Assembly: GCA_037447655.1 (NCBI GenBank)
Contig: JBBHKE010000773.1
Location: 166,310 to 230,309, forward strand
Length of the DNA: 64,000 bases
Source: Zygnema cylindricum
Taxonomy: Eukaryota; Streptophyta; Zygnematophyceae; Zygnematales; Zygnemataceae
Direction of reading: 5' to 3'
Of the stretch, positions 27,582-64,000 are shown in pieces; position 1 is the first letter of the stretch, and each line of letters begins with the position of its first letter. The notes beneath the pieces were generated by a model, which saw only the letters and a list, made by a program, of their open reading frames with translations, had not been told where the DNA came from and did not search any database. A program made the translations under genes and the position numbers.

Positions 27582-27596
27582 TGGTACTTATTTATA

Positions 27597-27941: not shown

Positions 27942-27943
27942 TA

Positions 27944-30969: not shown

Positions 30970-32150
30970 TATTCCCCCCCCCCCCTATTTTTTCCTCTTC
31001 TGCGTCAGAGTTCCCTGTTGGAGGTGTAATTGGTGGATCGGTTGTTGGTCTTTCAGCCAGGTATCGGTCGAACCGTTCCTGATATGTTTCCGTTGCTGAA
31101 GCATTCTTTTCTCGTTGTTGCTTCTGGTAACCCTCGAACACGAAGGAAGTTTCTTTAGAGCCAGAGGAGGAGGAATGGTCGGTTACAGGCCCAACACAAT
31201 GTCACTATTCAGCAGGACAGCTCGCGGTGTGAAGGATAAAGGACCGGTGGCTTTGCGGTTGTGGTCCTTTGGTTTGATCGACTGGTTTTCCTTTCTCTGT
31301 GAAGATGTGGTGGAGCGAAATTGCCTGCAATTGTCCTCGACCCCGACGTTCCAAGCTCCGGACAGAAATATCCTAGCATGATGAGCCTTTGGAGGCTCCA
31401 TATCCCAACCCATGAGGTCATCATCATCTCCCCCCATCGTGGTCTGCTGTTCGAGCTCACCCAGCTTTCGTAGCAGTTCTTGATTCTGTTTCTGCAGTTT
31501 TTGAGCGCGAGTTAGAGGTGGAGGAGTACGGGCCCTTGATCCCAAGCGGAGAGCGGCCAATTCTGCTGCCATGGCGGAAAATTGATTGCTTTGTTGCTGG
31601 ATGATGTGTTCCAACGTCAAGTTACTTGGTCCTGGTTCATCTGGAGATCGACGTCCTTAGGGATACAAAAGCTGTAATGGCAGGGGATTAACGACTTTTT
31701 CCCCCTCGCCTGTGAACAATACATATTGCATCATTTCTTTTGGTACACCAATATTCCGCAAAACATTGCCCCTCCTTATGGCCCATGAACCCACAAGCCT
31801 CACATTTTGACCCCTCAGTAGTTTACTTCCCTCTTAGCTCATTAGAGATATGTGCATCATCAAATTTAGGAAGTTTGATTTGTCTTCATTGGGATTAAGA
31901 CATTTTGGAGGTTTTGGAGCGAGGAGTATGTTTATAAGTTTCTTTTGTGAGCGGCGTGCGGTCCCCTCCTCCCCCTCCCTACTTGCGTTCCTGCTGCTTC
32001 CGGGTTCTTTCTGCTCGTTCTTTCTCAAACTCCTTTTGCTTGATAGCGAGTTCCGGGTTGAGCTTCCTAGGGCATCGTTTCCACCCGTGACTATTTTAGT
32101 AGCAGTTGAGGCAGTTGTACAGGGAAAGTTTTTCATCCGCACGCATTGCA
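30970..32150 (-). pseudogene. gag: M copy 2 Gag, zinc-knuckle and C-terminal domain
   Basis: On the minus strand a knuckle-like NCLNC-x4-HGWKRC near 32100, a basic helix KEFEKERAERTRKQQ, and further down an open piece (31620-31183). That piece has MAAELAALRLGS, a coiled coil, GWDMEPPKAHHARIFLSGAW and HNRKATGPLSFT. These correspond to 61034-62150 in the other copy. The last recognisable residues (ERFDRYLAERP) end near 30970. Nonsense changes and frameshifts are frequent. Confidence 0.72.
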
Positions 32151-32152
32151 TG

Positions 32153-32977
32153 TTACGATCTGGTCTCGACTTCATGTTTCCCGTTAAGCTTCCACAAAGC
32201 TTGAAGTTTTGTTTGTTCCTCTTCGTTAAGAGAGGATTCCCCCGTGAAATCTGCAAAGTTGGCTCGAGCTATGCCGATAACAGCATTTTCTTTGGCCTCA
32301 CTGTTTACAAAATGATCATACAACTTCATCGCAGCCAATGAGATTTCCTACGCCGTGGGATTTTTGTCGTGGATTGCCTGACTGGCACTCCAATTGTCGA
32401 GGGCGGCCTCTCCTGTTGGTCCAAACGAATTCCGAACAGCGACATAATATTTCGTGGCCATGGCTGGTGTGTGAATGGTAGACAGCTTGGTTTTCTGACA
32501 GAGGCTCGAGAGGTGGTTAAACAGCGTTTGCGGCGTTTCATTCTTTAAACATCGGAATTCATTGAATTCCTTGATTGGTGTTTCGTTCCTTTTTGTGTAA
32601 AGGAGCCTCCAGGCGTCCAGAAGAGCGGTGCAAAGGGTTGGGTTGGCCACCATCCGGGTGGCTGCCTCAACGACTTGTACCTCCTGCAGATGGTTAACAT
32701 AGGCTCTACCTTGGGCCTGCAATTTCATGTCCATAGAGAAAGTAGCGGTAACATGGGCTGCTGCGGCGGCAGCCAGGTCGGCGGCGGCGTCAAGAGCCGA
32801 ATCTGAGATTTTGATGTTAGGTGTCATTAGAGAGGGTTGACGCTCCTTATAGTCAACCAATGCTCCTCCGGCTAGATAGTTTACCATCATAGGGAAAAGA
32901 GTGGTCTCAAAATCCCCTGGGATGGCCCCTCCCCTGTATTTCTTAATTTCGGACTGTGTGAAGGATTTCCACAGCAT
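32153..32977 (-). pseudogene. gag: M copy 2 Gag, capsid-like core
   Basis: A 209-codon open piece (32977 to 32348) followed in another frame by 61 codons. Landmarks are LLWKSFTQSxIxKYRGGAIP at the start, FPMMVNYL.GGAL.DYKERQ, an Ala-rich helix, MATKYYVAVRNSFGPTGE and MKLYDHFVNSEAKENAV. It matches the M copy at 60013-61020 closely. By position it should be the capsid of the particle. I do not recognise the usual Retrotrans_gag signature, so the family may be divergent. A frameshift near 32340 and stops break it. Confidence 0.75.
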
Positions 32978-33306
32978 TTCAAAATCAGAAAAAGCGATCC
33001 CCGAGCTGTCCCTCGTAAAGATCCTTGTGTCCCCAATTTTTTTTTCCTCCTCGGCAAGGTGGGTGAACTGTGGAGAGGCTGATCTGGTGAGGTTGACAAA
33101 CTTGACCGGTGAAATGGCTCTGGGTTCTGTCCCTTCTATGCCGGAACCTCTTTCTCCTCCGGGTGTATCTGTTGGGATTGCCCCCCCAACTGAAGAAGGT
33201 CTTGCTGAAAAAGAAAGTGTGGAATCTCTGGCTCCTCAATATCCAGCAGAGTATTCTTCTTCTCCTAGGACCGTCGCCACCGAAGGGATGTGGAGGCGAG
33301 GCCTAT

Positions 33307-34990
33307 TCAAATATCTTTGTGGGATGGGCCGTGGCGGGGACAAAGATGACTGTGGGCTTTTAGGAAAAGGTGTCTATCTCCTAGGGAGCCTTCTAGAGGT
33401 TTCGGAAGGTGTAGTTCCAGAGCTGGAAGATGGGGATCGTCTGTGAGGAGGTGAGTAGGCGGAGACGTCGTACTTGTAGGGTAAAACAGGTGGTCTCGGG
33501 GACCCACGGACAGCGGCAACGGGAGAAATGGAGGGCGAAAGAGAGGAGTGAGGTGGAGATGGAGGTGGAGTGGACAGTCCGAGAGAAATGTGTGCTCTCT
33601 GGTCAGGTTGTAGCTGCACCACGGCCTCCATAGTGGAAGTTCTTGCCATCGAGACAAAGGTAGGATGCTCAGTGGCAATAGCTGCGAAGTTACCTAGTAG
33701 ATCTGCACCTATCCCCTCTTTGTTAGGCCCTATTGTCCCACCCCTTTCCCGCTGAAGGGGAGGTTCCGGTCTAGGTCTAGGGTAAGTCCTCGTAGCGTGT
33801 GTTGCAGGAGGAGTTGCTTGACCCGGGGGTTGCTCTCCCGTAGAGGAACTTGTTCTACGAGTGGAATCGACCTGTCCACTAAGGATCCCTCATGCTCTCT
33901 GTTTAGCCTCTTGGAGGAGGAGCAATTCCTGTTTTAGTGCCTTTTTCTGTTTCTCTTCAAGAGCCTCTTAGTCTACAGTGACAGGTCTAGCCCCCGCCGT
34001 AGCCCGACTCTGAGATCGTAGGAAATCAACAAACTTCGGGGTGCTGCTCACCACACCTAAAAGTTCTGCAATTCCCAAGCCTGGTACTTCAGGGTATGTA
34101 GGTCTCGAACGCCATCTTCCTTCGGAAGGTCGGACTATCGGCACTGATGGAGACATGGAGCTAAAAGAGACTGAGGAGGAAGAGAAGAACGAAATTTCTT
34201 TCGGTCGAGGAGCGAATCTGCCCTTGTTGTCTCTATGATTAAATCGGTGCACCCTCTTGGGCTCTAGGAACCCCCACTTACTGGTCCCTTCCCTGGCCCG
34301 GGTCCGTGAGGTTGCCCTCCCCTTGGATAGTCCACTCGTTGCGGTGTCTTAAGATTGGGTAGGATGTCGGTGTGAAGTTGACAATATCCCTTGTTGTTCC
34401 CGGACAGAGGTGGAAGACCCACTTTTCTGATGAATTGCTCAATATTTCCACTACGCCTCCCACTGGGCGTACGATTCTGGCTCAGTCAGACCAAGCTACC
34501 CGCTGCTCCAACTCCTTCTTAACCTTCAACTCATGGAGATTGTAGAGGGCTGAGATTTATTTTCAACCGGGCAGGTTAGGTTCTGCCAAGATTTCGCGAT
34601 CCATGAACATCTCCGCTATCGGAGCCTTAGATCTTCTATGGCGTCCTATTTTGGGAGGGTGATCGGGGACTGCTTCCCTATGTGCCAAGCCTTTCCTACG
34701 TGATTTAGGAGAAAAGGTCGATCTCTCCCCCTTCTTCGTGGCCCTAGATTTGGCAGCCTCGGACAAAGTTGGGAAATTCTCGGGAGAGAAAGAGGTGGAG
34801 GTGGAGGAGAGGGTGGCTTCACAGGCTGCTTTGGAGGAGTCTCAACCGTAATAGCCTCACGCATCATTCCGTGAAGAAACAACTCTATGTCTAGAGTGGA
34901 GGCAAAGGGAAGTGATGCCTCGAGCACTTGAGACTCTTCCTCCGGTGAAACTGCTTCTTCCCTTTTCGTTCTTTCGGTCGGACTCTTGAA
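33307..34990 (-). pseudogene. gag: M copy 2 Gag, N-terminal Pro/Ser-rich region
   Basis: Read right to left: an acidic start (EEESQVLEASLPF), a proline run and a basic block (KSRRKGLAHREA). Next come a helix LHELKVK, the RPVGGVVEILSNSSEK segment and the NHRDNKGRFAP segment. ATAGARPVTVD and a Ser/Pro-rich stretch with VLPYKYDV and HRRSPSSSSGT follow. Each has a counterpart in the copy at 58383-59950. Stops and frameshifts separate the pieces. The region is unusually long for a Ty3/gypsy gag N-terminus and appears largely disordered. Its role is unknown. Confidence 0.7.
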
Positions 34991-38144: not shown

Positions 38145-38571
38145 AGCACGAGCCCTTAAAGCACATATCGTACGTTGTTTTCTTCCCGCCAAATTCGCAG
38201 TCCCCACAAAACCACGAATTTGTGGGTTGAGAGCGGGGCTCCCAATTCAGCGGTAGGCAGCTGTAATGCCACCCTTGGTGACAACGTTCACACACCAACA
38301 AGAGGTCGGGTACGGGAGACACATTGCAGGTAGAAGAACAGGATGGTGGGTCTGCAAAGTAAGTGAGGTGGAAAGTGGGTTCGTCCTTTAACCCTCGCTG
38401 ATGGCAAATGGCCACATAGATCTGATTCTCTTTAATTTTGCCGCCATCTTTCCCTTCCAAAGTAAGAACCCCTTTGTTTGAAACCTCCACTACCTTCAAA
38501 ATTACTCGTCCAGCCGAAATGTCCAAAGTGTCCTTCTTTTGTTGCATGCTATACACGAAATTCCCGAGCAC
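38145..38571 (-). pseudogene. pol: M integrase tail with C-terminal PHD finger
   Basis: The frame from 38571 first has the usual post-integrase barrel (FVYSMQQKKDTLDISAG, VVEVSNKGVLTLEGKDG, codons 5-50). Where chromoviruses would have a chromodomain there is a PHD-type C4HC3 finger instead. C78-x3-C82, C94-x2-C97, H102-x2-C105 and C122-x2-C125 can all be counted, with the typical Trp two residues before the last pair (W120). PHD fingers usually read histone H3 tail methylation. Placed here it could steer integration to marked chromatin. The first Cys pair is spaced by three residues rather than two. The assembly gap cuts the C-terminus. Confidence 0.8.
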
Positions 38572-38574
38572 GAA

Positions 38575-39693: not shown

Positions 39694-40511
39694 TTACAGT
39701 ACTCCTTCGACCCGAGGCAGCCAAATAAAGGCAGAGGAAGCCCAGATAAGTCCCAGGCTGAGCTCTGGGTCTTCGTCGTGCGCCGCCCTGGTAGAGTCTC
39801 GGGTGGAAGGGTCCGGATTCCTGCTGAGTCCGTCGGCATTCCCATGAATCTCCCTAGCCCGATGGATGATGTTGAAATCATAATCCTGCAAGATGAGAAC
39901 CCATCTCGCCAGCTTGCCGGTCAACTTACTGTTCTCCATGATCCATTTGAGGGGCTGGTGATCCGTGATAAGAGTGAAGTGAACTCTATAAAGATAAGGC
40001 CGAAAATGTTGTATGGCCCACACCGCGGTGAGTAATTCCCCATGGTAACTGTTGTAATTCCCCTCAGCTCTATTATTATTCCGGCTTGCGTAGGCCACTA
40101 CATACTCAGCCTTTGCATCGTCAAATTGCGCCGAAACTGCTCCCAATCAGAACCTGCTCCAATCTGTATAGAGGAGAAAAGGCCGCTGGTGATAAGGCAT
40201 CCGGAGCACAGGATGCTACTTAAGGGAATCTTTCAAGAATTAGAAAGTAATATGTTGTTCTTCCTTCCACTGTCATTCTTGGTCTTTTCTCAATAATATA
40301 TTCAATGGCAAAGCGTGGCTACTGAATTCAGGAATAAACCTTCGGTAATAGTTTGCAAGGCCTAGGAAAGTTTGAAGAGTCGAAATGTCCTGCGGGGGAG
40401 GAAAGCGTCAAGGGCTGCCACCTTAACCATGTGGGGACCCACTATCCCGAAGTCACCTCGTGACCCAAATAAATGTTTTTCTGCACCCCAAAAATGCCCT
40501 TCCCCGGGTGA
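39694..40511 (-). pseudogene. pol: M reverse transcriptase connection and RNase H
   Basis: From 40511 the minus strand reads IYLGHEVTSG, then STLQTFLGLANYYRRFIPEF, the RT thumb/connection of Ty3/gypsy, with stops. RNase H follows: LYTDWS (first Asp), the open frame from 40146 (150 codons) with ASRNNNRAEGNYNSYHGELL (Glu) and LITDHQPLKWIM (Asp). It ends in GNADGLSRNP, the usual hinge to integrase. RNase H degrades the RNA strand during reverse transcription. The catalytic residues are all readable. Confidence 0.85.
40507..40511. other. Target-site half GGTGA beside copia B1
   Basis: Five bases before the LTR start. Its complement TCACC stands beside the inverted LTR at 53704-53708. See the finding on the split M element. 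Confidence 0.7.
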
Positions 40512-41584
40512 TGTAGAAATTAATGGTCCGTTTTTTAAAGTATTTTCTAGGTCTAAATAGAAATATAGAAAGAAGCCGAGGCAGTCTACCTCTAACTTCT
40601 CTCTCCTAACTCTCAAACTTGTCGCAGTCACTGAGAAATTGGAGAGGAAGCTAGAGCCATGGCTACCTAGGCTATCCAGAGGTTTACGGGAAATATATAT
40701 TAGTTTTTTTACCGTTAAGGGTTTATTTAGTAAAAGGATATATGTTCCCACCAGGATTTGATCGTGGTACCTAACGGACAGTAAGCTGCCGGTAGCCCGT
40801 AGCCTTAACTGTTAAGTCTAGATGTAACGAAACATAATATAGGGTTTGAAATTTTAATTAAACTTTACAACGTAGGATTATTCGTTTAACTAAAATTATT
40901 TACAGGAAACATAGATCTAGTAATGTAAAAGTACAGTTTGCGGTACGGATAAGAAACGAATACCGCGCATTTGTTTCTTTAGCGAAACGAATACCACGCA
41001 GGTATTTATTACAGCTACAATTAAATGGGAATGTGATTGAATAGCCAAAATAAACGTCGAGATCGCGGAATAAGATTTCGGCCATTTATGGTCATTGCCA
41101 CATCGGATGACAGGTGGCAAAATTGCGTTGGATCGAGGTATCTTCGGGGATTACGGCACCGAATCCGGATATGACATGTGTCGACTATTAGGCCATGTCG
41201 TAAAATGTTCATGCATAAAGTACACCAACACCTGTATTTTTGTGTACAGAGATGAAATTTGATTGGCTCTGTACATCAGTAGATAGAGTCTGTGAGAGAG
41301 ATAGGACTTAGAAAAATTAGGAGATAGGACCCTCTCTCCCAGAGAGCTTCGGTACAAAAAGGTCAACTTTGACCCTCCATAACTTACTGCTCAGGGGAGC
41401 AAATTCAGAATTTCTTTTTGATATAGACTAAATGGAGTCTTGCCTTTAAAGGGGTGAAGGTGGTTAGAGTTATTATCTGCCAGGGTGGCAGTTGTTCTTG
41501 CTAAAACACAAAGGGGTTAGGGTTATCCTAGAGGCTCCTTGGAAGCTGTCCACTCTGAGGACTTATGGAGGTCTCAGAGTTTCA
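40512..41584 (+). repeat. 5' LTR of copia B1
   Basis: TGTAGAAATTAATGG to GAGTTTCA, 1073 bp. It carries the tRNA-like palindrome at 40751-40767 and an inverted TTGACC pair (GGTCAACTTTGACC, 41359-41372) next to the promoter. Confidence 0.9.
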
Positions 41585-44985: not shown

Positions 44986-44989
44986 AAAC

Positions 44990-45655: not shown

Positions 45656-45670
45656 GGTTATGGGCCCACC
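45656..45670 (+). other. Half-tRNA primer binding site of B2
   Basis: GGTTATGGGCCCACC; gag ATG at 45660 inside it. Confidence 0.82.
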
Positions 45671-46316
45671 CTCTAGGGTACCAATCTTTAATGGAACTGG
45701 CTTCATATATTGGGAAAGTATGATGATAGGAGCTCTATGCGAAAAAAGGTTTTGGGGGATAGTGAGTGGACGGTTGGGGCGTCCATCAAGTCTTGGAATT
45801 CCTCCAGGGTTGGGAGGAACCAGATTCACCAGGAAAGAGGACCCACCTTCAACGGAGGAAACAAAAGAAGGAGAGGTGGTGGACAAAGGAAAGGAGAAGG
45901 AGACGACCACACCAATAGCAACTGGTTCGAAATTCATGTAACCTATTTCGAGGAATGAGGAGAATGATACTGAAACCTGGGACTTCAACAATATGGCGGC
46001 AAAGCACTTCATCCTACGCCATCTCACTTAAGGACTTGCATGTCCTCATTTGCAGGTAGAAAGAGCATCCGATCTTTGTATGGCTCTCATAGAGATGTAC
46101 CGAAGTGGTACGATTCAGCAACAACAGTTGCCTGATCAGAAAGTTAAGGAGTATGTATACAAAGGGGGAAATATGTTGGATTTTTGCAATGAGCTTGCTA
46201 CACTCTTCATGGAGCTACAGAGTGCGGGAAAAGATTTTAGTGAAAAAGAAAAGGTTAGCTGTTTACTGATGAAGTTACCTGATGAGTTCGTGAACATAGT
46301 TTACCGTGTGTAGGAC
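45660..46316 (+). pseudogene. gag: Copia B2 Gag, N-terminal and capsid part
   Basis: The frame is the same as the long pol frame that follows. MGPPSRVPIFNGTGFIYW opens it. UBN2-like capsid segments DTETWDFNNMAAKHFILRHL, IEMYRSGTIQQQQLP and LLMKLPDEFVNIVYRV are intact. Three stops (near 45939, 46029 and 46311) are single-base changes. Apart from them gag and pol form one uninterrupted polyprotein, the usual copia strategy. Confidence 0.88.
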
Positions 46317-50950: not shown

Positions 50951-51061
50951 ATAATGAGATGGTAGCAGATATGATGACCAAACCTATGCCTTGCCCTAAG
51001 CTAATCTTCTGCAGGGAGAAGTGCGGTCTGAAATTAAAGATTGACTAGAAAATAAGTGGAG
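50951..51061 (+). pseudogene. pol: C-terminal tail of B2 Pol and polypurine tract
   Basis: NEMVADMMTKPMPCPKLIF, then CGLKLKID and TAG at 51046-51048, matching the pol tail on the minus strand at 55465-55560. AAAATAAGTGGAG before 51062 is the plus-strand primer. Confidence 0.88.
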
Positions 51062-52129
51062 TGTAAAAATTAATGGTCTTTTTTAAGTATGTTCTAGCTC
51101 TGAATAGAAATATAGAAAGAAGCCGAGGCAGTCTACCTCTAACTTCTCTCTCCCACTCTGAAACTTGTCGCAGTCATTGAGAAATTGGAGAGGAAGCTAG
51201 AGCCATGGCTACCTAGGCTATCCAGAGGTTTACGGGATATAAATATTAGTTTATTTATAATTTATAATATATTTACTAAAATTTATATGCCGCCTCCAGG
51301 ATTTGATCCTGGAACCTGCCGGCAGATAATTAGCCGGTAGCTGATAGGTCTAACCGTTATGTTTAGAGATAGTGTTAGGGACAATAAGGATTGATAATTA
51401 ATTAAACTTTAATATGTAGGATAGTTTATTTAACTGAAATAGTTTTACGGGAGACATAGATCTAGTAATGTAAAAGTACGGATTACGGTACGGATAAGAA
51501 ACCAATACGACGCATTTATTTCTTTACCGAAACGAATACCGCGCACGTATTTATTACGGCTACGTTTAAATGTGAATTTAATCAGACGGCCAAAATTAAA
51601 CGCCGAGATCGCAAAAGAGAATTTCGGCGGTTTTTGATCATAGCCACATCGGATGACACGTGGCGGAATGGCATTGGATCGCGACATCTCCGAGGATTAA
51701 AGGAGCGAATTCGGATATACCACGTGTCGACATTTAAGCCATGTCGTACAATGTTCGTACAGAAAGTACATCGGTAGCTGTACTTTTGTGTATGAAGGAG
51801 TAATCTAATTGGCTCCGTACATCAGTAGATAGAGCCTGTGAGAGAGATAGGACTTAGAAAAATTAGGAGATAGGACCCTCTCTCCTAGAGAGCTTCTGTA
51901 CAAAAGGTCAACTTTGACCCTCCATAACTTACTGCTCAGGGGAGCAAATTCAGAGATTCTTTTTACTATCCACTCAGGGGAGTCTTGCCTTTACAAGGGT
52001 GAAGTTGGTCAGAGTTATTGTTTGCCAAAGTGGCAGTTATTTTTGCTGAAACACAAAGGGGTGAGTGTTATCCTAGAGGCTTCTTCGAAGCTGTCCACTT
52101 TGAGGACTTATTCAGGTCTCAGAGTTTCA
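51062..52129 (+). repeat. 3' LTR of copia B2
   Basis: TGTAAAAATTAATGG to GAGTTTCA, 1068 bp. It carries the tRNA-like palindrome at 51296-51312, a CACGTGGC box near 51658 and the GGTCAACTTTGACC pair near 51906. Confidence 0.9.
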
Positions 52130-52790
52130 CGCCAGTGGGGTACGTCTTGGAAAATGTTCACCCAACAGATGATAAAAGAAAAAAGGTGGTCAACAGCTGG
52201 AACCAAGTGACCAAGGTTCTAGGGACTCCAATAGTTTTTGATGCCGCTCAGGTCGGATCAAGAGCCCACCGAGTTCGGGCTTATCGGACCAACTTGGTTC
52301 CTCTTCACATCCTCCAAAAGTTGTTGAAAACCCAGGTTCCAGATCCCAACATCACAGTTCAACAGATTCTCGGACCAGGGCGCAGGGCCACTCCAGTGAC
52401 CAAAGCCGACAGAACACCCTTTTTCAGTTGCAATGAACCCGGATATCCACGGAAGGCCCTACCCACCTTGGTATCTTTTCCTAAGAGCCATGTTTACCAG
52501 AGAGGCGCACTTGGGATGATATTTGACAATACAGCAAATACTTGGATAGCACCAAGCATTGAGGAACCGGAACAAGCAATGGGATTCCGACAAACAACCA
52601 TAGCAGCATCGAGGTCTCAGCCTCAAAGAGGTGCAGTTTAATCGGGCAAAGTACAGATTTGAATGCAATTTCTTGGGTACTGCGACATCCTCTGGCATTC
52701 TCTAGCCTACACTCTCCAACGTCACGGGGAGCATACCTTCAAGCTCCACTGTTGTTGGCCATGCAAGCTACTCTACAGCTTGAGGGTGGG
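52130..52790 (+). pseudogene. M C5 cytosine methyltransferase, C-terminal half
   Basis: An open frame through 52641. Motif VI reads YVLENVHP (ENV codons 52150-52158). Motif VIII reads VGSRAHRVRAY (52252-52284), the Q/HxRxR-type block that closes the cytosine pocket. FFSCNEPGYPRKALP follows, then the target/motif IX-like EEPEQAMGF. After a frame change, DLNAISWVLRHPLAF resembles the motif X end. Spacing is compact, as in DNMT3/DRM-type enzymes with a short recognition region. It aligns with 63660-63999 of the other copy and supplies the part cut off there. The enzyme would transfer a methyl group from AdoMet to carbon 5 of cytosine. The codons before 52130 are copia LTR, so the long open frame is a chance fusion. 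Confidence 0.82.
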
Positions 52791-53189
52791 AGAGAGGAAA
52801 GAAAACAAAACTTCACACAATTTCATTCAGATAGCACCCTAAAACCAGGAGTTTCCTTAGTGAGGGAGAGCGAAGGCTCAGATTACGGCAGCTTAAGGGA
52901 AGCTGTCAGCAGCAGCGTTTTAACAACCTAGAAAGGGACAGACCCACAGGTCGAGCTATAATTCGACATCTCCCCATGGGGTAGGCCACATGGAAACATT
53001 GGCGGCAGGTGGAACGGGAAGATGGATTGGACTCTAGAGAGAAGCTGGGCCTTGGCCGAAGGCGGCTCTCCAGCATGGGAGGAGAACGGACGGTGTTCGC
53101 TATCGACAGGATGTAGGAGGAATCATAATGGGACCCCACAGTTGACGTCGGCAGGCAGCAAGCCTGTTTGGTAGAAAGTATCCTCTCGG

Positions 53190-53708
53190 TTCGAGGAGAA
53201 GTTCATTACAAGGAGAAAACTTTGGTGGAGCGAGGCTGGGGGAAGTACAAGGCTACATGGCTCCCTCACCATAGTACTCGCCATGAAAGAACCCCGAAAA
53301 ACGATAGATTTTAGGATGTGTGGGAACCCCAAGAGATGCTCAGCGAAAGTCTCCGATCGTTATCCTATGCCTACCCCAGAAGAGATCTTTAACTCTCTTG
53401 CTGGGGCCACCATCTACTCCACGTTGGATATGAAGAATGGATTTCACCAGATTGCAATGGAGCCGAAGCACCAGGAGAGGACCGCTATTTTGGCAAGATC
53501 TGGGCTGTATGAATGGCTATACATGCTATTTGGCCTCAGAAATGCACCTGCCAAATTCCAACGGGCCATGGACGAGGCTCTACGGGGAATGACTTCGCCC
53601 GATGCTACATCGACGATGTGATCATCTTCTCCAAGACATTCAAAGAACACTTGGGGCATATACAGATTGTTTTTTGGGGGCTCCAAGCAGCGGGCTTGAA
53701 GTGTCACC
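53190..53708 (+). pseudogene. pol: M reverse transcriptase, N-terminal half
   Basis: The RT fingers and palm: KTIDFRMC, DRYPMPTPEEIFNSLAGATI, YSTLDMKNGFHQIAM (first Asp), LYEWLYMLFGLRNAPAKFQR. After a frameshift near 53595 the catalytic FARCYIDDVIIFSKT follows, then GLQAAGLKC. This is a clear Ty3/gypsy RT. It ends at 53708 in the middle of the domain because of the copia insertion. Between the methyltransferase and RT (52790-53190) the frame is broken, but EEKLGLGRR and KEKTLVERGWGKYKATWLP suggest a linker. Confidence 0.87.
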
Positions 53709-54095
53709 TATAACTCTGAGACCTCCATAAGTCCTTAGAGTGGAGAGCTTCCAAGAAGCCTCTAGGATAAACCTGACCCCTTTGTGTTTCAGCAAGAATA
53801 ACTGCCACCCTGGCAGACAATAACTCTGAACACCTTCACCGCTGTAAAGGCAAGACTCCCCTGAGTCGATAGCAAAAAGAATCTCTGAATTTGCTCCCCT
53901 GAGCAGTGAGTTATGGAGGGTCAAAGTTGACCTTTTTGTACAGAAGCTCTTTGGGAGAGAGGGTCCTATCTCCTAATTCTTCTAAGTCCTATCTCTCTCA
54001 CAGACTCTATCTACTGATGTACGGAGCCAATCAAATTACACCTCCGTACACAAAAGTACAACTTCCGGTGTACTTTCTGTACGGACATTGTGTTG
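53709..54095 (-). repeat. Inverted copia-B LTR fragment
   Basis: The complement of the last 385 or so LTR bases, beginning at TATAACTCTGAGACC (normally TGAAACTCTG). It breaks off near 54095 at the GTACGGACATTGT stretch. It is flush with target bases TCACC (53704-53708). Confidence 0.85.
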
Positions 54096-55256
54096 TTTTT
54101 AGAAAGCTTTAGTCCTCTCTATGCCTCAGCTGTGAGGGAGAGAGAGCTGTTCAGGACTTAAGTTATTTTTGGTTGAATTCGGTTCAGTACTTACCAAAAT
54201 TAGTGTGACAGTGAAGTTGGGAGTTCAAGGTTCATTCACACTTGGGACACGCGTCGTCACTTGAGAGAAATGGGTGAGTATGTCCTCCGTGGACGTACGA
54301 AAATTCGGCATGACCACGGGAATTTGTGAAGTCAGTTCTACGGTGCAAAATCCTCTAATCGTATTAACAACCCGCCAACATTAATGGAAGACTGTATCCC
54401 ATCCTAGCCGAAACCCCAAATATTTGGTAAAACAATTTTTGTGTTAAAATTAACGTTTAGTGCGAGAGAACGGTTTACTAATATGTTACAATATACTCGC
54501 ATTTTGTTGTGTTTTAATGTTAGATGTGCGGATGGAATGCCCGATGTTTTAATGTGTTGATTGTATGAAGTAGACTTTGAGTAATTTGATTATTAGGAAC
54601 AATGATATGGCGTACCTCGCCATGTAATTTTTCTTCCTTCTCGCGGATGCGTTGGCGGTGCGTTAATTTTGTGCGTATTTCTCTGTTTTTATCTAAATTG
54701 CTGAATAACCGGGACCATTGAGCTTGTTTACTTATAGATGCACGATGTTGTATTCATCATATTTTGATTTGTTATACGATGACTACGCTGCCATTCCATC
54801 TGCGTGTTTTCTTGCATCTCTTACCCCCGCCGCCAGATTTGTGCCGAACAAACATTGAGCGGCTGGCCTAATAGTCGATACGAATGCGTATCCCATTCTG
54901 CGTGTCCCAAATTAACATCCAACGTTACGCCGCGTCATCCAATGGCGATGACCAAACAGCCTAATACATTCAGAATATGTTGATGTTTGTAGACAAATTC
55001 CTTTAATCGTGGCGGATAATGCTCGTTAATTAAGTTTCTCTAACGATGTCGTTTCTTTTCTGTCTGAACCGTGCTTTACATTCTGGATCTGTCCCGGAAA
55101 AGTTTAAACGAGTATCCTAATGGTAAAGTTGATTAAAAATCAAACCATATTATGACATCGTAACTTAGCCCTTAACGAAATGCCAAACGACTTATTCTCC
55201 GTTAGCATCTTGATCAATCACGGTGTTGCCATCTTTTGCAATAACCTCCGGTAAAT
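54096..55256. other. No gene seen
   Basis: Mixed-composition sequence between two inverted copia fragments. No open frame with motifs, LTR edge or RNA gene recognised. Confidence 0.45.
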
Positions 55257-55447
55257 CAACTAATATTTATATTTCGGAAACCTCTGGATAGCCTAGGTAG
55301 CCATGGCTCTAGCCTCCTCTCCAATTTCTCAGTGACTGCGACAAGTTTGAGAGTTGGAGAGAGAAGTTAGAGGTAGACTGCCTCGGCTTCTTTCTATATT
55401 TCTATTCAGACCTAGAAAATACTTAAAAAAGACCATTAACTTCTACA
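55257..55447 (-). repeat. 3' LTR fragment of copia B3
   Basis: The LTR start (TGTAGAAG on the minus strand) is at 55447. Only about 190 bases are present before unrelated sequence. Confidence 0.85.
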
Positions 55448-55464
55448 CTCCACTTATTTTCTAG

Positions 55465-56729
55465 TCAATCTTTAATTTCAGACCGCACTTCTCCTTGCAG
55501 AAAAATTAGCTTAGGGCAAGGCATAGGTTTGGTCATCATATCAGCTACCATCTCACTATCTGGTCGGTACTCTAAACTGATTATTTTGTTTTCTACTTTC
55601 TCTCTAACAAAGTTGAGTCTAATGTCCATGTGTTTGGCTTTAAAATGATGTTTAGGATTGGCAGAAATAGCGATTGCTGCCTGATTATCACAAAATATTT
55701 TCTGCACACCACTCTTAAGGTGACCAAGCTCACCAAGCAAAGACTTCACCCACATCAATTCTTTTACAGCAGAGCAAGAGGCCATATACTCAGCCTCCAT
55801 GGTGGACTGAGCAATAACCTTTTGCTGTTTGCTACTCCAACAACAAGCCCCATCACCCACATATAATACATATCCAGAAGTACATCTCCTCATCGGAGCA
55901 TCACCATAACTGGCATCACTCCAAGTAGTGATGTCAGTATTCTCCCCACCCAAATGCAACCATAGATCCCTAGTTCCTATCAAATATCTAAGAACTCTCT
56001 TAGTTGCCTCCTAATTCCTCTTAGTGGGAGCATTTAGACTTCTACTCAGTACTCCTACAGCTGTAGCTAAATCCGGCCGGGTACAATTCATAAAATAGAT
56101 TAGGCTTCCCACTACTTCCTTGTAAGGAAAAGTTTGCATGAACTTCTATTCTTCAAGACTTAATTCGTCGTCTAAGACTATGACTCCTTCTTCCTCACTC
56201 CCCTCACTTCCCTTCTTTAACTCCATTGGAGTTGTACAACTATTAGTTTTATCCATCTGAAATTTTTCCAACATCTTCCATATTGCTTCCTTTTGATTCA
56301 ATCTTATAATATTTCTTTCTCGGTCTCTTTCTACTTGTATTCCCAAAATATATTGTGCCTCCCCCATATCCTTCATTTCAAATCTCCTCTTAAGATCGAT
56401 TTTCAGTTTATTAATTTTTTCCATTTATTTACTTAAAACAAACAAATCATCAACACAAATTGCAATAAATATAACACCTTCCTCATCTTCAAAAACATAT
56501 ATTGAGTAATCTGAGGTGATCCGGATATATCCCAGACCAGTAAGAAACTCATCAAGCTTCTTATTCCACTGTCGAGGCGCCTGTTTCAAACCATAAAGAG
56601 ATTTAATCAGCCGGCATACCTTACTCTCCTCTCCTTCCTCCACAAATCCTTTGGGTTGTCGCATAAAGATCTCCTCTTCCAATTCTCCTTGCAAAAAGGT
56701 TATCTAGATGTCCATCTGGTGCACCTCTA
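55465..56729 (-). pseudogene. pol: Copia B3 RT and RNase H
   Basis: From 56729 on the minus strand: EVHQMDI with a stop where B2 has K, then EEEIFMRQPKGFVEEGEESK and SLYGLKQAPRQWNK. The catalytic box reads CVDD instead of YVDD (near 56460), followed by a stop. The connection (MKDMGEAQYILGIQVERD) ends near 56146 at a stop. RNase H is fully open (55983-55465, 172 codons) with WSDASYGDAP, MEAEYMA and CDNQ, plus the tail EMVADMMTKPMPCPK. The tyrosine-to-cysteine change and nonsense changes make it inactive. Confidence 0.87.
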
Positions 56730-56739
56730 NNNNNNNNNN
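56730..56739. other. Assembly gap (10 N)
   Basis: Ten N bases at the edge of copia B3; the true distance to the following sequence is unknown. Confidence 0.98.
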
Positions 56740-57107
56740 AGGCTCCTAATGCCCTCGCTTAGATCTGTATGGTGCACAGCTGTAAATCCGGTACAGCATG
56801 TCACAAGCATGTTTTTCATGTGGCCGTCGACATGAAAACACATGTTTTGACGTAAGACTAACCGAGACATGTAGTCATCTATCTCAGACACTCTCTCTAT
56901 CCTGAATCTTTTTAATCCTCTATCCTGGGAGAGAGGGTCTCTCGAAAACATGTTTTCCAGTTGAAACTGGGAGGTATTGATTGACGAGTCCCCTCGTTAA
57001 AGTCTCTAAGAAAAACGATAGCTTAGTCGCCTCAGAAAGGAAGTGTGCCCACTTCAAGCTGTCTCAATAAAATACGGTCCCACTGTCAATAAAAACGACT
57101 TTGTGTA
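56740..57107. other. No gene seen
   Basis: Short stretch with CATGTTTTCATG-like inverted phrases and a GGGAGAGAGGGTCTCTCG motif resembling LTR promoter DNA of another family. No boundary found. Confidence 0.4.
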
Positions 57108-58098
57108 AGCCTCTTGGATAACCCTGACCCCTTTTTGTGTTTCAGCAAAAATAACTGTCACCCTGGCATAAAATAACTCTGTCGAACTTCACCCGTGTGA
57201 AGGAAAGACTCCGCTGATTCGATAGCAAAAAGAATCTCTGAAATTGCTCCCCTGAGCAGTTAGTTATGGAGGGTCAAAGTTGACCTTTTGTACAAAAGCT
57301 CTCTGGGAGAGAGGGTCCTATCTCCTAATTTTTCTAAGTCCTATCTCTCTCACAGACTCTATCTATTGATGTACGAAGCCAATCCGAATGCAGTTTTGTA
57401 CACAAAAGTACAGCTGCCGGTGTACTTTTTGTACGAACACTGTACGACATGGCCTAAATGTCGACACGTGGTATGTCTAGATTCGCTCCCGTAATCCTCG
57501 GAGATGCCGTGATCCAATATAATTCCGCCACGTGTCATCCGATGTGGCGATGACCACAAACCGCCGAAATCTTCTTCCGCGATCTTGTCGTTAATTACGG
57601 CCGTCCGATTAAATTCATATTTAATCGTAGTTGTAATAAATACATGTGCGGTATTCTTTTCTTTAAAGAAACAAATGCGCGGTATTGGTTTCTTAGCCGT
57701 ACCGCAATCCGTACTTTTACAATTATGGATCTATGTCTCCAGTAAACAGTTATAGTTAAATGAATTTTCCTACTTGATAATATTTAATTAAATATCAAAC
57801 CCTATATTACGTAACACTCGATAAAGATTTAACTGCTAAGGCTACCTGCTACCGGCTCTCCGCCGGCCGTCCTGTAGCCGGCACATTCCTTTTAGTAAAT
57901 AAACCTCTAACTAATATATAATCCCTGTAAACTTCTGGATAGCCTAGGTAGCCATGGCTCTAGCTCCCTCTCCAATTTCACAGTCACTGCGACAAGTTTG
58001 AGAGTTGGAGAGATAAGTTAGAAGTAGACTGCCTCGGCTTCTTTCTATATTTATATTTAGACCTATAAAATACTTTAAATGGACATTTAATTTCTACA
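57108..58098 (-). repeat. Inverted copia-B LTR, nearly complete
   Basis: The complement of a B-type LTR. Its TG end (TGTAGAAATTAAATG) is at 58098; the other end lacks about 50 bases. It includes an inverted-orientation promoter near 57270-57350 and one hairpin unit near 57650-57690. Confidence 0.87.
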
Positions 58099-58382
58099 AG
58101 ATAGGACTTAGAAAAATTAGGAGATAGGACCCTCTCTCCCAAAGAGCTTCTGTACAAAAGGTCAACTTTGACCCTCCATAACTTACTGCTCGATAAAAAA
58201 AATTAAGAGATTCTTTTGCTTTCGGCTTAGGGGAGTCTTGCCTTTACTGTAGTGGAATTGGTCAGAGTTATTGTCTGCCAGGGTGGCAGTTGTTTTTGCT
58301 GAAATACTAAGGGGTCTGGGTTATCCTAGAGGCTTCTTGGAAGCTGTCCACTCTGAGGACTTATGGAGGTCTCAGAGTTTCA
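58099..58382 (+). repeat. Direct copia-B LTR, 3' part
   Basis: From AGATAGGACTTAG to GAGTTTCA, the last 280 or so bases of an LTR in plus orientation. It touches the start of the inverted LTR at 58098, making a fold-back pair. Confidence 0.85.
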
Positions 58383-59950
58383 TCGGGCTTCATACCAGAT
58401 CTAAGATACCCAGGGATGAGATGCAGATTGACCCTGCGGTTTTGACGGATCCACGCCGCCTAGGGCGTAAGGAACTCCTTTCCCTTCACGACCTCCATGA
58501 GCTGAAGGTGAAGGAGTTGGTGTAGAGAGTGGCTCGGACAGATCGAGTTAGGGTGGTTAGACCTGTGGGAGGGGTGGTGGAGATCCTGAGCAGTTTTTCG
58601 GAGAGCAAGTCTTCACAGTCAGTGCAGGACTGGTCATAGAGGGCTCCCTATTCTCATGTTCTCCTCCATCTTCCTCCCAGGACACTTCAGCCAGCATACC
58701 TTCCCGGGGAGGCACCTCTTCGCGGCGTCATAGAGGAGAAAGGGGTAGCGAGAGGGAAGCGCGAGATCCATTGAGAGGGAAGAGGTTTGACCACAGGGAC
58801 AGCAAGGGGAGATTCACACCTCTTCCAAAGAAGAGACTTCCCCAACTCTTATGCTCGCCTCCACCAAGAAAACCTCTCCAACAATCTCTCGTGTCCGCCC
58901 TTCTGGATGGCTTTGAGGATCCGAACCTACTGATCCAGAGGTTTCGGGTAAGGGTCGAGATGATTTGTCCAAATGACGGTGGAGGATTAGACCTAATGAC
59001 CCCGAGATTGCGGGAATGGGGATAACATATTTGACCTGAGTAGTCGAAAGAGCCCAGGAATTAGTGGAAGTTCTAAAATCCATGAGTAAGGCTACAGCGG
59101 GGGCCGCACCCGTTACGGTAGATTGGGAAGCCTTAGAGGTAGAAAGGCGGAAGTTATGTGAACAGGAATTGAAACTTATTCGGGAAGTTAGGCGTAGATC
59201 TAGTGGAATTTTCAGCGGGCAGATTCGTCTTACACCAAGGACAAAGCCGCATCTTGAAGTGCCCGCTCAAGGGACTTCTCCTCTTGCAAGCACCCAGCTT
59301 GAAATTCCTTCCTAGGAAACCAGCGGAGAGCCTCCTTTTCTGCGGGAAGAGGGGGAAATCATTTAACCTAACATGAAGGGTTTGGGTGCAGATTTACCTC
59401 CTAAGTCTGCTTCTCTTCCCCAGGAAGAGCCTACCTTTGTCTCGGTGGAGGTTGCTTCCGCCGTGGAGGCTTAGGTGGAGTTATGATAAGACGAGAGGAT
59501 TCATATTCCCTTGAGGCCGTCAACACCCCCTTCACCATCTCCCGGAGTATCCCCCGATCTCACATCTTCTCCTCATCCTCCATCTTCTCACTCCCTGGGT
59601 CTTACAACAAAGCCCCGGGACGTTCCCGCCTCCTCTCCCTCTTCATCCTTTTCTCCCGCTGCAGCAATCCGTGGGTCACTTGATCCGCTTGTCTTACCCT
59701 ACAAACACGACGTCTACTCACCTCTTCATCGACGTTCCCCATCCTCGAGTTCAGGAACTCCTCCTCCCGAGACATTCGAAGGCGACCAAGGAGTCAGAAA
59801 CCATTCAGGAGACAGACACCTTCTCCTCAAAGCCTCAGTCGTCCCCTTCTCCGCCACCACCCATTCCCCAAGGACCTCCTTTGAACCGACCTCGCCTCCA
59901 CATCCCATTGGTGGAGCAAGTTTTCAGAGAAGGACAATACTCTCCTAGAT
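58383..59950 (+). pseudogene. gag: M copy 1 Gag, N-terminal Pro/Ser-rich region
   Basis: Pieces in several frames. Seen in order: AVLTDPRRLGRKELLSLHDL; LHELKVKELV; RPVGGVVEILSSFSE; HRDSKGRFTPLPKK; a proline/leucine-rich stretch; ATAGAAPVTVDWEALE with a basic helix (VERRKLCEQELKLIREV). A Ser/Pro-rich segment with VLPYKHDVYSPLHRRSPS follows. Each matches the minus-strand copy at 33307-34990, which confirms that the reading is real coding sequence now decayed. The first part of gag is missing because of the copia junction at 58382. Function beyond particle assembly cannot be inferred. Confidence 0.7.
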
Positions 59951-60012
59951 ATTGAGAAGTAGTGGGGAACATCCTTCCTCCAACCATATTTTGAGGCGCT
60001 GGTACTTCCTCT

Positions 60013-61030
60013 GTGGGAGGGGGATCCACATCTCTCAGGGCAACACCTTCTACCAGAGGAGGATACGTTTCCGGTCCAGAGGAAGAGGATATGGGAGTCA
60101 TCTCGCTAGCTCATTTTGTCAGCCCCACCAGGCGTTCCTCTTCTCATTTCACCAATTCGGCAGAAGAAGAAAAGAAAATGGGGGATATCCGGATCTTTAC
60201 AAGAGATAGCTCGGGGATCGCATTTTCGGATTTCGAGTTGTTGTGGAAATCTTTCACACAATCCAGAATCAATAAGTACCGGGGAGGAGCCATTCCAAAT
60301 GACTTCAAAACAACCCTCTTTCCCATGATGGTCAACTACCTTTTTGGAGGGGCGTTGGCGGATTACAAAGAGCGTCAACCTCTTTTGATGGCTTCTAGCA
60401 TCAAGATCTCGGAACTAGCCCTTGATGCTGCAGTTTTACAAGCAGAGGCTGACTTGGCTGCGACGGCTGCAACCCCTGTGACTGCTACCTTTACACAGGA
60501 CATGAAACTATAGATAGAGAGAAGTGCCTATGTTAACCAGCTGCAAGCAATCCAGGCAACCCAGGCAGCAACTCGCATGGTTGCCAATCCCAACCCTTGT
60601 ACTTCCCTGCTTAACATTTGGAGACTCCTTTACACCTAGAAGAACGAGTCTGTGATCAAGGAAATTCACGGAATTTCGATATTCGAAGAACGAGACTCCA
60701 GAGACCCTCTTTAACCGACTCTCCAACCTTTATGAGAAGACAAAGCTGTCCACTATTGATCATCTAGCGATGGCAACCAAATATTTCATCGCCGTCCGTA
60801 ATTCATTCGGGCCAACAAGGCAGACTGCTCTGGATAATTGGATTGCCGGATAGGCAATTCAAGACATTAATCCCTCAGCCAAGGACATTTTGCTGGTGGC
60901 GATGAAGTTGTACGATCACTTTGTCCACAGTGAGGCAAGCGAGAAGGCCGTGACTAGCAAGGCCCATGCCAATTTTGCAGAATTCGCCGAGTAGACCTCC
61001 TTGAGTGAGAAGGAAAAGGTTGTACTTTAA
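60013..61030 (+). pseudogene. gag: M copy 1 Gag, capsid-like core
   Basis: An open piece of 166 codons (60013-60513) with LLWKSFTQSRINKYRGGAIP, FPMMVNYLFGGALADYKERQ and an Ala-rich helix, then a TAG. The rest continues in changing frames: LQAIQATQAATRMVANPNP, LSNLYEKTKLST, MATKYFIAVRNSFGPT, AMKLYDHFVHSEASEKAV. It pairs with 32153-32977. A conserved helical core of about 270 residues in this position is best explained as capsid, though I cannot assign a named gag family. Confidence 0.75.
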
Positions 61031-61033
61031 GCT

Positions 61034-61500
61034 TTGCGAAAGCATAAAGGGAAGCAAGTGGCTGATAGTGGGTCAAAACCGGCAATGGGAGCAGACGAAA
61101 GAGTTTTTCTTTACAATTGCCTAAATTGTCAACAAACAGGGCATGGGCGGAAGCACTACACACGGAAACTTAAACCGGAGCTGGCTTTAAAGTTGAAAGA
61201 ATGGGAGAAAGAACGTGCAGAAAGGACCCGAAAGCAGCAAAAAGGCTTAATGGGGAAGGGGGAGGGAGAAAACCCCAGTAACGAAGGACACTTACCATTC
61301 GACTCCCCGAGGAGAAACCTCCAAAATGTTGGAATCCCAGCTGCGACAAATCAAACTTCCAAAATTTGATGACGCCCAAATATCAAATGAAATCCGAAAG
61401 CAAATACACCTCCAAAGGAACAAAATTCAAGGCTTGTGGTTTCATCGGGCATAAAGAAACGCAATGTTTCCGAAAGAATGGGGTCTCTAAAGAAATGATG
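61034..61500 (+). pseudogene. gag: M copy 1 Gag, two zinc knuckles
   Basis: Knuckle 1 is CLNCQQTGHGRKHY (near 61115-61160; the fourth ligand Cys is Tyr here but Cys in the copy at 32100). A basic helix follows (LKEWEKERAERTRKQQ). Knuckle 2 reads CGFIGHKETQC near 61436-61470, in another frame. Two CCHC knuckles are unusual for plant Ty3/gypsy gag, which normally has one. They should bind RNA for packaging. Confidence 0.7.
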
Positions 61501-61679
61501 TAGTTCGCCCTATTCACAGGCGAAGGAGAAAAAGCCGTTAACCCTCTCCCACGTCAACTCCTCTATCCTTCGGGACGCAAAGTTCCGCTTACCCAAGAGG
61601 AACCAGAGCAAGCACCGATGGCTCTGACCAGACTTACACCGGAGTCATCATCCAGCAGCCGAGTCACCAACAGGCTACA

Positions 61680-62543
61680 ATGGCTGCAGAATTGGCTGCC
61701 ATCTGCCTGGGATCTCCTTCACGACCTACTCCTCTCACAGCTCCACAACGATTCCAGATATTAAAACAGGAGTTGTTACAAAAGCTCGCGGAGCTTGAAC
61801 TTCAAAGGACAGCAGGTGCTAATAATGATGACTTATTGGGCTGGGATTTGGAACCCCAAAATACCCACCATGACTTAACCTTTCTGTCCAGAGCTTGGAA
61901 TGTTGGGGTGGGAGACAGCCGTCGACAACTCCGAAATTCCACCTCGGAGCAAAGAAGAGACAGGCAGAGAATGGGACAGCAGGACCACAACCAGAAGGCT
62001 ACAGGGCCTTTGTCATTTACTTCTCAAGCGGTTATTCTCAACAACGACATTGGCCTCGGGATCAAAGCGACTCACCCGCCCTCTCTGCCTATCAAACTTA
62101 AACTACCTCCAGGTTTTGGGAACTACCAGAGTGACAAACAACAACAGGAAAATGTGTCACTAGAGCGAGAGAAAAAAGACAATCAGGACTGGTTTGAGAG
62201 ATACATGGTAGAACACCCGGAAAATGACAGTCCCCAATTTTTGGCAATCCCAGATTTCGGCTCCGAGAATGACGAGGAAGAAGGACAGGATAAGGATCAG
62301 CTTAAACCGGATTCACTCCCATCTTCACTGAAAGCTACCTTTCTTTCCTCTAAACCGGCTGCCATGCTAGTCACGCACCTTATGCCATACGCCCTCACCC
62401 ACGTAAAGACTCTAGCATCCTCCCACAACCCGCACGAAGAAATACTGGATTTGGAGAAGAGATCCACTCTGGAAAAAGGAGGGTCGACAAGGCCACTTCG
62501 CAAACCGCAGTCTTTTTGTCCACAGATCCGAAAACCCCTATAG
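61680..62543 (+). pseudogene. M copy 1 Gag-Pol linker domain
   Basis: 287 open codons, collinear with 30970-31620 on the other strand. A coiled coil (RFQILKQELLQKLAELELQ, near 61750-61810), GWDLEPQNTHHDLTFLSRAW, HNQKATGPLSFTSQ, LKLPPGFGNY, an acidic region and a basic Pro/Ser end. No enzyme motif. The two copies keep the same order and wording, which implies selection while the element was active. It lies between nucleocapsid and protease. Confidence 0.7.
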
Positions 62544-62900
62544 TGGATAGGGACTACAAAGCCTTATCAGTGGCTCTTATACTGAACCGAACAGGAAACT
62601 TTAAGCTTAACGGGTACGGAGGATACCAGGACGCTGTGGTCGACACCGGAGGGCTCCCCAATCTCATCACCACCTCCGCTTTGCAGAAAATGCCCAAAGA
62701 ACTCCGACCCAAAATCTACCCAAGCAATATCTGCTTAAGCACCGTAAGCAGCGACAGTTAGCCCGTCAATGGGATTATCAAGTCCATGGAAATCGAGTTT
62801 TCTGACTACGCAGGCCAATAAGTGAAAATTGAGCTACCCTTTTTAGTGGTAGAAATGACTCAATTCGACATTCTGTTGGGAATGGCTACTTAGACCCGAC
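62516..62900 (+). pseudogene. pol: M aspartic protease
   Basis: FKLNGYGGYQDAVVDTGG carries the active-site Asp (62642-62653). The triad reads DTGG instead of the common D-S/T-G-A. A beta-rich body follows, then FDILLGMAT near 62865, the second hallmark (ILG). Stops at about 62760 and 62820 interrupt it. It would release capsid, methyltransferase and pol proteins from the polyprotein. Only this copy covers the protease in the window. Confidence 0.75.
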
Positions 62901-63247
62901 TAAATATGAGTTTGAGCATGTGGAAAGAACAGTGTACCATTCGGAACCCTAGAAATCTTGAAGGAACCACAGTGGTGGTTCCTTTGGATTTATGGAACTG
63001 GGGGAAGACAAATGTCTTGATGTCTGGTTGTTACCCAGTGTATACTACATCATCTCCGACGAAACTGTTTGGCTGTTCCACAGATATAGCTGAAGAAATC
63101 TAGCAATTCCCATTTCCAAGCGGTGGGAAGAGGAATACAAGAGTAGATTATTACTGGTGGCGAAACTCTAGCGCAAAGTGGATCAGACTTTACACCCTGT
63201 CTGATGCTTCCAAAACCAGGTCCGGTAACGAAGAATTCAACCGACAT
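62901..63247 (+). other. Linker between protease and methyltransferase
   Basis: Readable only in fragments (for example VVPLDLWNWGKTNVLMSGCY near 62970-63040 and SKRWEEEYKSRLLL near 63117-63155). No recognisable domain; presumably the N-terminal part of the methyltransferase module or a spacer. Confidence 0.45.
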
Positions 63248-64000
63248 GTGGTGTCATTGACAGTCCCAGATCTCAGCCTTCGAATTTTATCTCTGTTTTG
63301 TAGAATCAATTTGGATTTAGAAGTTGTTATAAAAACAACATATCGGGTAGAGTCATATACCGCCGTGGAGATATCACCAGATTCACGGGCTGTCAACAAA
63401 CACCGCCTTCACCAAATACACACCCTGTATCTTCAACATTTTCCAGTGTTTGCCTTTTCCAAAGCTCACCAGAGTCTTCCGCAGAATATAGAAAACATCC
63501 TGAAACCCCATCTAGCCAATTTGGAAAGAATAGATCTGGTGATTGCAGGATGGCCTTGTCAAGGATACTTCATAGCGGGACAAGGCAAAGGGCATAAAGA
63601 CCGTAGAAGCCGGGAATTTAATCGGATGATCAAATTAATCTCGTGGATTCAACAATTCTAGGAGACACCGGTGGGGTACGTTTTCGAGAATATCCACCCA
63701 AGAGATGATAAACGGAAACAGGTTGTGGACAACTAGAATCTGATAACCCGGATTTTAGGAGCTCCCTTGGTTTTTGACGCCGCCTAGATGGGATGAAGAG
63801 CACACAGAGTCAAGGCCAATTGGACGAATATGATCCCGCTTTTAGTTCTCCGACAACTATTGGATAAGCAGACCAACGACCCGAACAATTCGGTGCAGTA
63901 GATACTTGGGGAACATAGGATGGCCACCCTTGTGATGCGACTCGACCGCTCCCCTTTCTTTCGGTGCAACAAACCTGGATTCCCACGGAAAGCTCCCCGA
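63248..64000 (+). pseudogene. M C5 cytosine DNA methyltransferase, N-terminal part, truncated by window edge
   Basis: Motif I reads LRILSLFCRINLDLEVV (AdoMet binding; family FDGIG reads FCRI here, so damaged). An acidic AVEISPDSRAVNKH follows (motif II/III-like). Motif IV reads DLVIAGWPCQGYFIAGQGKG with the catalytic Cys at 63557-63559. Then LISWIQQ. After a TAG at 63661, motif VI reads GYVFENIHP (near 63674-63700). Motif VIII reads RAHRVKANWTN (near 63797-63830), and FFRCNKPGFPRKAP reaches the window end. These are the ordered hallmarks of C5-MTases of the DNMT type, and the PCQ core plus compact size excludes RNA methylases as the simplest reading. Several nonsense changes inactivate this copy. 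The same domain at 52130-52790 is followed by RT. Confidence 0.85.

Follow-up and report, generated by a model that had tools for sequence, protein, structure and literature searches.

Remnants of a Ty3/gypsy retrotransposon lineage in Zygnema cylindricum that likely carried a DNMT3-like methyltransferase and a PHD finger

Retrotransposons are main targets of DNA methylation, and one that keeps a methyltransferase under selection reverses the usual arms race. What, then, is a C5 cytosine methyltransferase doing among the retrotransposons of the streptophyte alga Zygnema cylindricum? The window, that is, the whole 64-kb stretch of contig JBBHKE010000773.1 that was analyzed, is made of nested, decayed LTR retrotransposons, and the copy with the enzyme (copy A) lies at its end. 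The explanation preferred here, with a probability of about 0.7, is a Ty3/gypsy LTR lineage whose polyprotein held a DNMT3 domain between the protease (PR) and the reverse transcriptase (RT) and, in a second copy now split into pieces B and D, a PHD finger behind the integrase (Table 1). Every piece of the element is broken, none is intact, and copy A and copy B/D represent different subfamilies. The architecture gag-PR-DNMT3-RT-RH-IN-PHD would be a composite, gag-PR being contributed by A and RT-PHD by B/D.

Table 1. Coordinates of the gypsy pieces and of the copia insertion flanks within the window
Feature	Position	Strand	Remarks
Copy A	58383-64000	+	begins directly after the copia LTR end at 58382; runs past the window end
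Copy A, gag-like region and flanks	58383..62108	+	several frames, decayed; likeness to copy C
Copy A, probable aspartic protease	62606..62884 (about)	+	DTG by eye; frame common with the methyltransferase
Copy A, DNMT3-like C5 cytosine methyltransferase	63257..64000	+	motifs I, IV, VI, VIII; ends at the window edge
Copy B	52130-53708	+	methyltransferase C-terminal half, then Ty3-type RT
Copy B, methyltransferase C-terminal half	52130..52682	+	motifs VI, VIII, IX, X-like
Copy B, Ty3/gypsy RT	53175..53708	+	ends just past the YIDD box
Target-site duplication GGTGA, B side	53704..53708	-	copia insertion flank
Target-site duplication GGTGA, D side	40507..40511	+	copia insertion flank
Copia LTR, D side, foreign to the gypsy element	40512..41584	+	belongs to the insertion that probably split copy B/D
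Piece D (probable continuation of copy B)	40511-38116	-	RH, H2C2, IN core, PHD
Piece D, RT continuation	40404..40511	-	not in the frame of the following RNase H; weak alone, 20/300 shuffles as high
Piece D, RNase H of RT	39880..40188	-	PF17917, 106.5 bits
Piece D, integrase H2C2 zinc-binding	39477-39307	-	PF17921, 56.4 bits
Piece D, integrase core (rve)	39249-38971	-	PF00665, 39.3 bits
Piece D, PHD finger	38197..38331	-	PF00628; in frame behind the integrase
Copy C, related gag region	31144..34649	-	likeness to copy A

The gag-like region of copy A gave no Pfam match. It was recognized solely because it resembles the minus-strand copy C, at 66.8% nucleotide identity over 2309 nt and with translated alignment blocks spanning 58382 to 62108. 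A zinc-knuckle-like stretch at about 61115-61160, identified by eye, does not have the full CCHC. The likeness of copy C to copy A stops before the expected start of the protease, so that copy C is uninformative on the methyltransferase, and the copy C area (24001-34000, minus strand) had no Pfam match at E 0.1. The protease stretch of copy A scored 18.2 bits with Asp_protease_2 (cut-off 24.3) and 15.3 bits with RVP_2, both under the curated cut-offs, and a PDB search with it returned one unrelated row and no protease; these sub-threshold matches, the position of the stretch and a DTG seen by eye nevertheless strongly suggest a protease. Where the original prediction had placed gag and an aspartic protease upstream of the methyltransferase, the gag-like region is recognizable through copy C, and the protease stays below threshold and without a counterpart in the PDB. 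No LTR pair belonging to the gypsy element itself was present in the repeat list, and copy A is bounded by the copia LTR and by the end of the window.

Protease and methyltransferase are joined in one plus-strand frame (62456-64000), in which 9 of 515 codons are stops; the two remaining frames of that strand have 32 stops (514 codons) and 20 stops (515 codons). It is therefore a decayed coding frame, a pseudogene and not an open ORF. PF00145 scored 26.2 bits on 63104-64000 (cut-off 22) and 23 bits in a scan of the full frame of 2000 residues, so that the C5 methyltransferase of the original prediction passes the profile check proposed for it. The motifs also occur in the order foreseen, at 63281-63310 (I), 63554-63565 (IV, the PCQG with the catalytic Cys), 63686 (VI, EN) and 63800-63811 (VIII). 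The catalytic PCQ is intact and the glycines of motif I are lost.

A second copy supports the identification. A copia LTR, whose end lies at 52129, truncates the 5' side of copy B. The first part of copy B (52129-52458) and copy A agree in 61% of 110 residues (E about 1e-42). Motif IX follows at 52564-52587 and, after a frame change, an X-like motif at 52638-52682, both recognized by eye; the frame changes between the parts of copy B indicate decay. Behind them lies an RT (PF00078, 45 bits) whose best 2 of 16 PDB rows were 4ol8, the Ty3 RT (E 2.4e-19), and 7q5b, the Ty3 polyprotein (E 1e-18), so that the Ty3 enzyme is the nearest by sequence among the PDB matches. The methyltransferase is thus found behind the protease in A and before RT in B, and its placement within a Ty3/gypsy element, as first proposed, holds.

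The comparison of the two copies also tells how the domain evolved. Over 106 shared codons, pS was 0.755 (saturated) and pN 0.22, giving a pN/pS of 0.29 with a bootstrap range of 0.20-0.40 (0 of 500 replicates at or above 1), after 4 of the 110 aligned codons had been excluded as stops in A. The same alignment read in the two shifted frames gave 0.99 and 1.62. The methyltransferase domain was therefore under purifying selection while the lineages of A and B, both active, diverged. This evidence comes from the methyltransferase block alone and not from the A/C blocks, for which pN/pS went from 0.28 to 1.22 across right and wrong frames. Because a second copy at 61% identity shows constraint at the codon level, the methyltransferase match is not a product of chance, as judged from the sequences.

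To which family does the enzyme belong? A phmmer search of the PDB with copy A (E <= 1) returned 36 distinct sequences, namely 25 of DNMT3A, 3B or 3C, 10 forms of M.HhaI and 3g7u, a "cytosine-specific methyltransferase"; DNMT3C and DNMT3A were the top matches, and the best DNMT3 E value was 3e-5. With a profile of A and B together (E <= 10), 42 rows were obtained. Of these, 29 were DNMT3 (best E 4.8e-6), 11 were the M.HhaI forms and 3g7u already found with copy A, and 2 were unrelated proteins; none of the 42 was named DNMT1, CMT, DRM, DNMT2 or DNMT5. Both counts are inflated by near-identical DNMT3 and M.HhaI constructs and show a class rather than independent votes. On these matches DNMT3 appears to be the C5 methyltransferase family nearest to the catalytic domain of copy A, an assignment resting mainly on copy A because the copy B fragment alone found no methyltransferase in the PDB at E 10 (1 row). 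Copy A shows motifs I-VIII and copy B motifs VI-X, of which IX and X were recognized by eye, in the collinear order of DNMT3.

The other families fared less well. The identities DNMT1 and CMT are unsupported in the PDB searches. In DRM enzymes motifs VI-X come before I-V, and the order in copy A, with motif I preceding IV and VI, rules them out. That the DRM catalytic domain is rearranged is also described by de Mendoza et al. 2018 (PMC5890265). Further searches gave general DNA-methyltransferase families in PHROGs for copy A (best E 6.2e-8) and, in NCBIfam, dcm under its cut-off; copy B had no match in PHROGs, and two stretches of it had none in NCBIfam. Among viral sequences in IMG/VR, 10 methyltransferase and 3 RT pattern matches were found and none was confirmed by tblastn, as was the case for all 55 pattern matches in GTDB genomes. 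No Pfam match at all, ADD and PWWP included, was present upstream of the methyltransferase (62900-63300), and a structure prediction of the enzyme from a two-row alignment reached a mean pLDDT of 37.3.

A DNMT3 in a gypsy element raises the issue of novelty. One explanation, to which we would give somewhat less than an even chance, is that the element is the published KnitGypsy-Dnmt3 or its direct streptophyte counterpart, so that both go back to a single ancient capture and the PHD finger and the domain order are merely undescribed details of that family. The dense nesting of LTR elements in the window does not look like a small genome and does not favor this explanation. A further clue comes from the host, for which tRNA and Rfam searches gave no informative match. 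In pairs of repeat copies that are 80% or more identical, the frequency of C/T differences relative to unchanged C was 0.269 at CG, 0.225 at CHG and 0.105 at CHH, counts that derive from overlapping, non-independent repeat pairs and are suggestive only. Transversions, too, were above the CHH level (0.081) at CHG (0.114), a smaller rise in the same direction. This mutation spectrum hints at CG and CHG methylation, as in streptophytes, and the roughly twofold excess at CHG over CHH fits a CHG-methylating streptophyte host and thereby a counterpart of the known element. As described, the two also have in common the element class, the DNMT family, a collinear DNMT3 within Pol and a low Ka/Ks (PMC5890265). 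Against this, a figure legend of the same paper gives a DIRS-like repeat arrangement. The capture of DNMTs by retrotransposons, which the original prediction gave as known, is documented in the Klebsormidium and Symbiodinium cases, and the general kind, a DNMT3 in the gypsy Pol polyprotein of Klebsormidium nitens, had already been published (PMC5890265). DNMT3 inside gypsy Pol being known, the combination of DNMT3 and PHD appears as a variant of it; no gypsy element reported to carry the two together was found in the literature searched, which includes a minority of the subscription papers.

Did the enzyme serve the element? The original prediction proposed that the element could methylate its own cDNA or its insertion sites, and an excess loss of CpG was taken as the sign of such self-methylation. 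The observed/expected CpG ratio was 0.64 in A, 0.56 in B, 0.69 in D and 0.65 in C, and no excess loss was seen relative to two copia interiors (0.53 and 0.58), a weak test because the host may methylate all the elements compared; self-methylation is thus left unsupported. One copia LTR had a ratio of 0.84 and the whole window 0.80, and the value of 1.03 in a gypsy element at 13305-16402 is unlike those of the other elements. The same CpG values would suit the view that the enzyme held the element back or was of benefit to the host and had no role in retrotransposition itself. This possibility is named by de Mendoza et al., who reported that DNMT-free elements expand too in Symbiodinium (PMC5890265). 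Purifying selection at saturated pS is hard to maintain on a mere passenger, however, and we regard this view as improbable.

The PHD finger belongs to the same element only if pieces B and D do, and the connection between them passes through the copia elements of the window. In the region 40512-58382, copia elements and their LTRs (about 1.07 kb, TGTAGAAA...TTTCA) lie in either orientation, and an inversion seems to have taken place between inverted copies. The best-preserved element observed in the window is one of them, with a polyprotein ORF at 46314-49913 (plus strand) of 1199 aa and 0 stops that matches RVT_2 (268.6 bits), rve and gag_pre-integrs. An apparent solo copia LTR lies at 49902-50950 between the near-matching flanks ATAGT and ATAAT. 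Elsewhere, the window contains a distinct gypsy element at 13305-15492 (plus strand) with zinc knuckle, protease, RT and RNase H, and no methyltransferase match in its two ORFs; a transposase fragment at 237-770 (plus strand; DDE_Tnp_4 43.5 bits, Plant_tran 32.2 bits), presumably Harbinger-like; and long AGGG/GAGAGG-rich simple repeats at 3233-5626 that give rise to spurious long ORFs.

Copy B ends at an LTR fragment of the same copia kind (end at 53709, minus strand), next to which stands GGTGA, and piece D starts at a copia LTR that opens with TGTAGAAA at 40512 and is preceded by GGTGA. Exact 5-mer matches of this sort are expected by chance about 0.02 times (20 pairs/1024), the 20 pairs being 4 LTR starts times 5 LTR ends with no copia interior next to them. 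When the empty site was joined with one duplication kept, the frame of the YIDD box was open over 39 codons; two of the three frames are open across the join, so that openness alone is weak proof. A further comparison used the RT of the other gypsy element (14650-15492) as reference, to which B and D were aligned separately and unjoined. The end of B scored 65, with 0 of 300 shuffles as high, and the start of D scored 30, a value that 20 of 300 shuffles also reached. Reference residue 65, at the duplicated codon, is where the final codon of B and the opening codon of D both fell, as would be expected of a duplicated target site. After a frame change, the next part of D matched the reference from residue 101 onward (score 175, 0 of 300 shuffles).

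Taken together, these sequence comparisons strongly suggest that B and D once formed one element, which a single copia insertion split in two. The two are now on opposite strands, and inverted copia copies flank B; an inversion between such copies likely separated them. If they are one element, the RT in B followed by RNase H and then integrase in D gives the gypsy order PR-RT-RH-IN, with the weak PR coming from copy A alone. In copia elements the integrase comes before RT. The opposite strands, the distance of about 12 kb, the lack of overlapping sequence to compare and the weakness of the junction frame test would all be compatible with B and D as unrelated gypsy fragments, the PHD finger then coming from another element that had no methyltransferase. 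With the exact GGTGA on both flanks, of which chance would give about 0.02, and both halves projecting onto one residue of the reference RT, we consider that account quite unlikely and treat B/D as one element.

Piece D runs from RNase H to the PHD finger in a single frame with 12 stops in 802 codons. PF00628 reached 27.8 bits with the short ORF and 23.3 bits, just under the cut-off of 24, with the whole frame, and the 26 PDB rows found with this stretch at E <= 0.1 were PHD-bearing proteins, with MLL3 and ATXR5 first (E about 1e-4). A chromodomain behind the integrase was not among the Pfam matches at E 0.1 (38102-40511, minus strand). The methyltransferase, RT, RNase H, integrase and PHD domains are established, as are the orders methyltransferase-RT in B and RH-IN-PHD in D, and the second copy probably carries the PHD finger. 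That a host DNMT3 gene or retrocopy merely adjoins gypsy debris by chance, outside any polyprotein, might be imagined from two broken copies in a mosaic of nested insertions, and is hardly credible given the single frame of protease-like stretch and methyltransferase, the diverged second copy with the same domain before RT, and the codon constraint between the copies.

What such an element could have done with these domains can be sketched for the preferred architecture. Cleavage of the polyprotein would leave the methyltransferase with RT and integrase in the particle, where it might methylate new cDNA, or the chromatin of the insertion site, de novo at CG. The PHD finger could bind a certain state of the H3 tail and steer the integrase to that chromatin state, so that finger and methyltransferase would form a reader-writer pair, much as ADD does with the catalytic domain in animal DNMT3. 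Insertions marked beforehand like host chromatin would do less harm to the host. In its full form, this proposal holds that a gypsy lineage in a new streptophyte host captured DNMT3 once more and independently and combined it with an integrase-borne PHD finger, to give a histone-reading, DNA-methylating integration complex that pre-silenced its own insertions; we put it forward as doubtful. More generally, the remnants suggest a parasite that formerly applied its host's silencing machinery to itself or to the places where it landed. A histone reader on the integrase offers a concrete hypothesis for why the enzyme was retained, namely to read the chromatin state and write the mark where the element lands.

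Several known systems share parts of this design. Chromoviruses are Ty3/gypsy elements with a chromodomain behind the integrase and, like the element described here, carry a histone-reading module on the integrase C-terminus; here a PHD finger replaces the chromodomain, and a methyltransferase is added. An arthropod retrotransposon has reportedly captured a methyl-CpG-binding domain, also a component of DNA methylation, but a reader of methylated DNA and not a writer. Animal DNMT3 has a catalytic domain of the same family together with ADD and PWWP, so that a zinc finger reader accompanies the writer (PMC12344493); in the present lineage the finger is attached to the integrase and may belong to a separately cleaved protein, and no ADD or PWWP was found upstream. 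According to the same 2025 paper, protist and algal DNMT3s are likewise without companion domains, and some DNMT3s are embedded in streptophyte and dinoflagellate retrotransposons (PMC12344493). In SymbioDIRS-Dnmt3 of Symbiodinium, the DNMT3 is carried by a retrotransposon in an RT-bearing ORF, as here, and the element is a DIRS with a tyrosine recombinase, in contrast to the DDE-type integrase (rve) and Ty3-type RT of the present lineage. The SymbioDIRS enzyme has been shown in yeast to methylate CG de novo, an activity established there for two DNMT3s from Symbiodinium retrotransposons (PMC5890265). Closest of all is KnitGypsy-Dnmt3 of Klebsormidium nitens, with a gypsy Pol, a collinear DNMT3 and purifying selection, although its repeats are described as DIRS-like and the main text of the paper, in the part consulted, mentions no PHD finger (PMC5890265). 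The K. nitens gypsy enzyme had no activity in yeast, a result that its authors judge inconclusive (PMC5890265). The Zygnema element extends the Klebsormidium case with domains that can each be tested separately.
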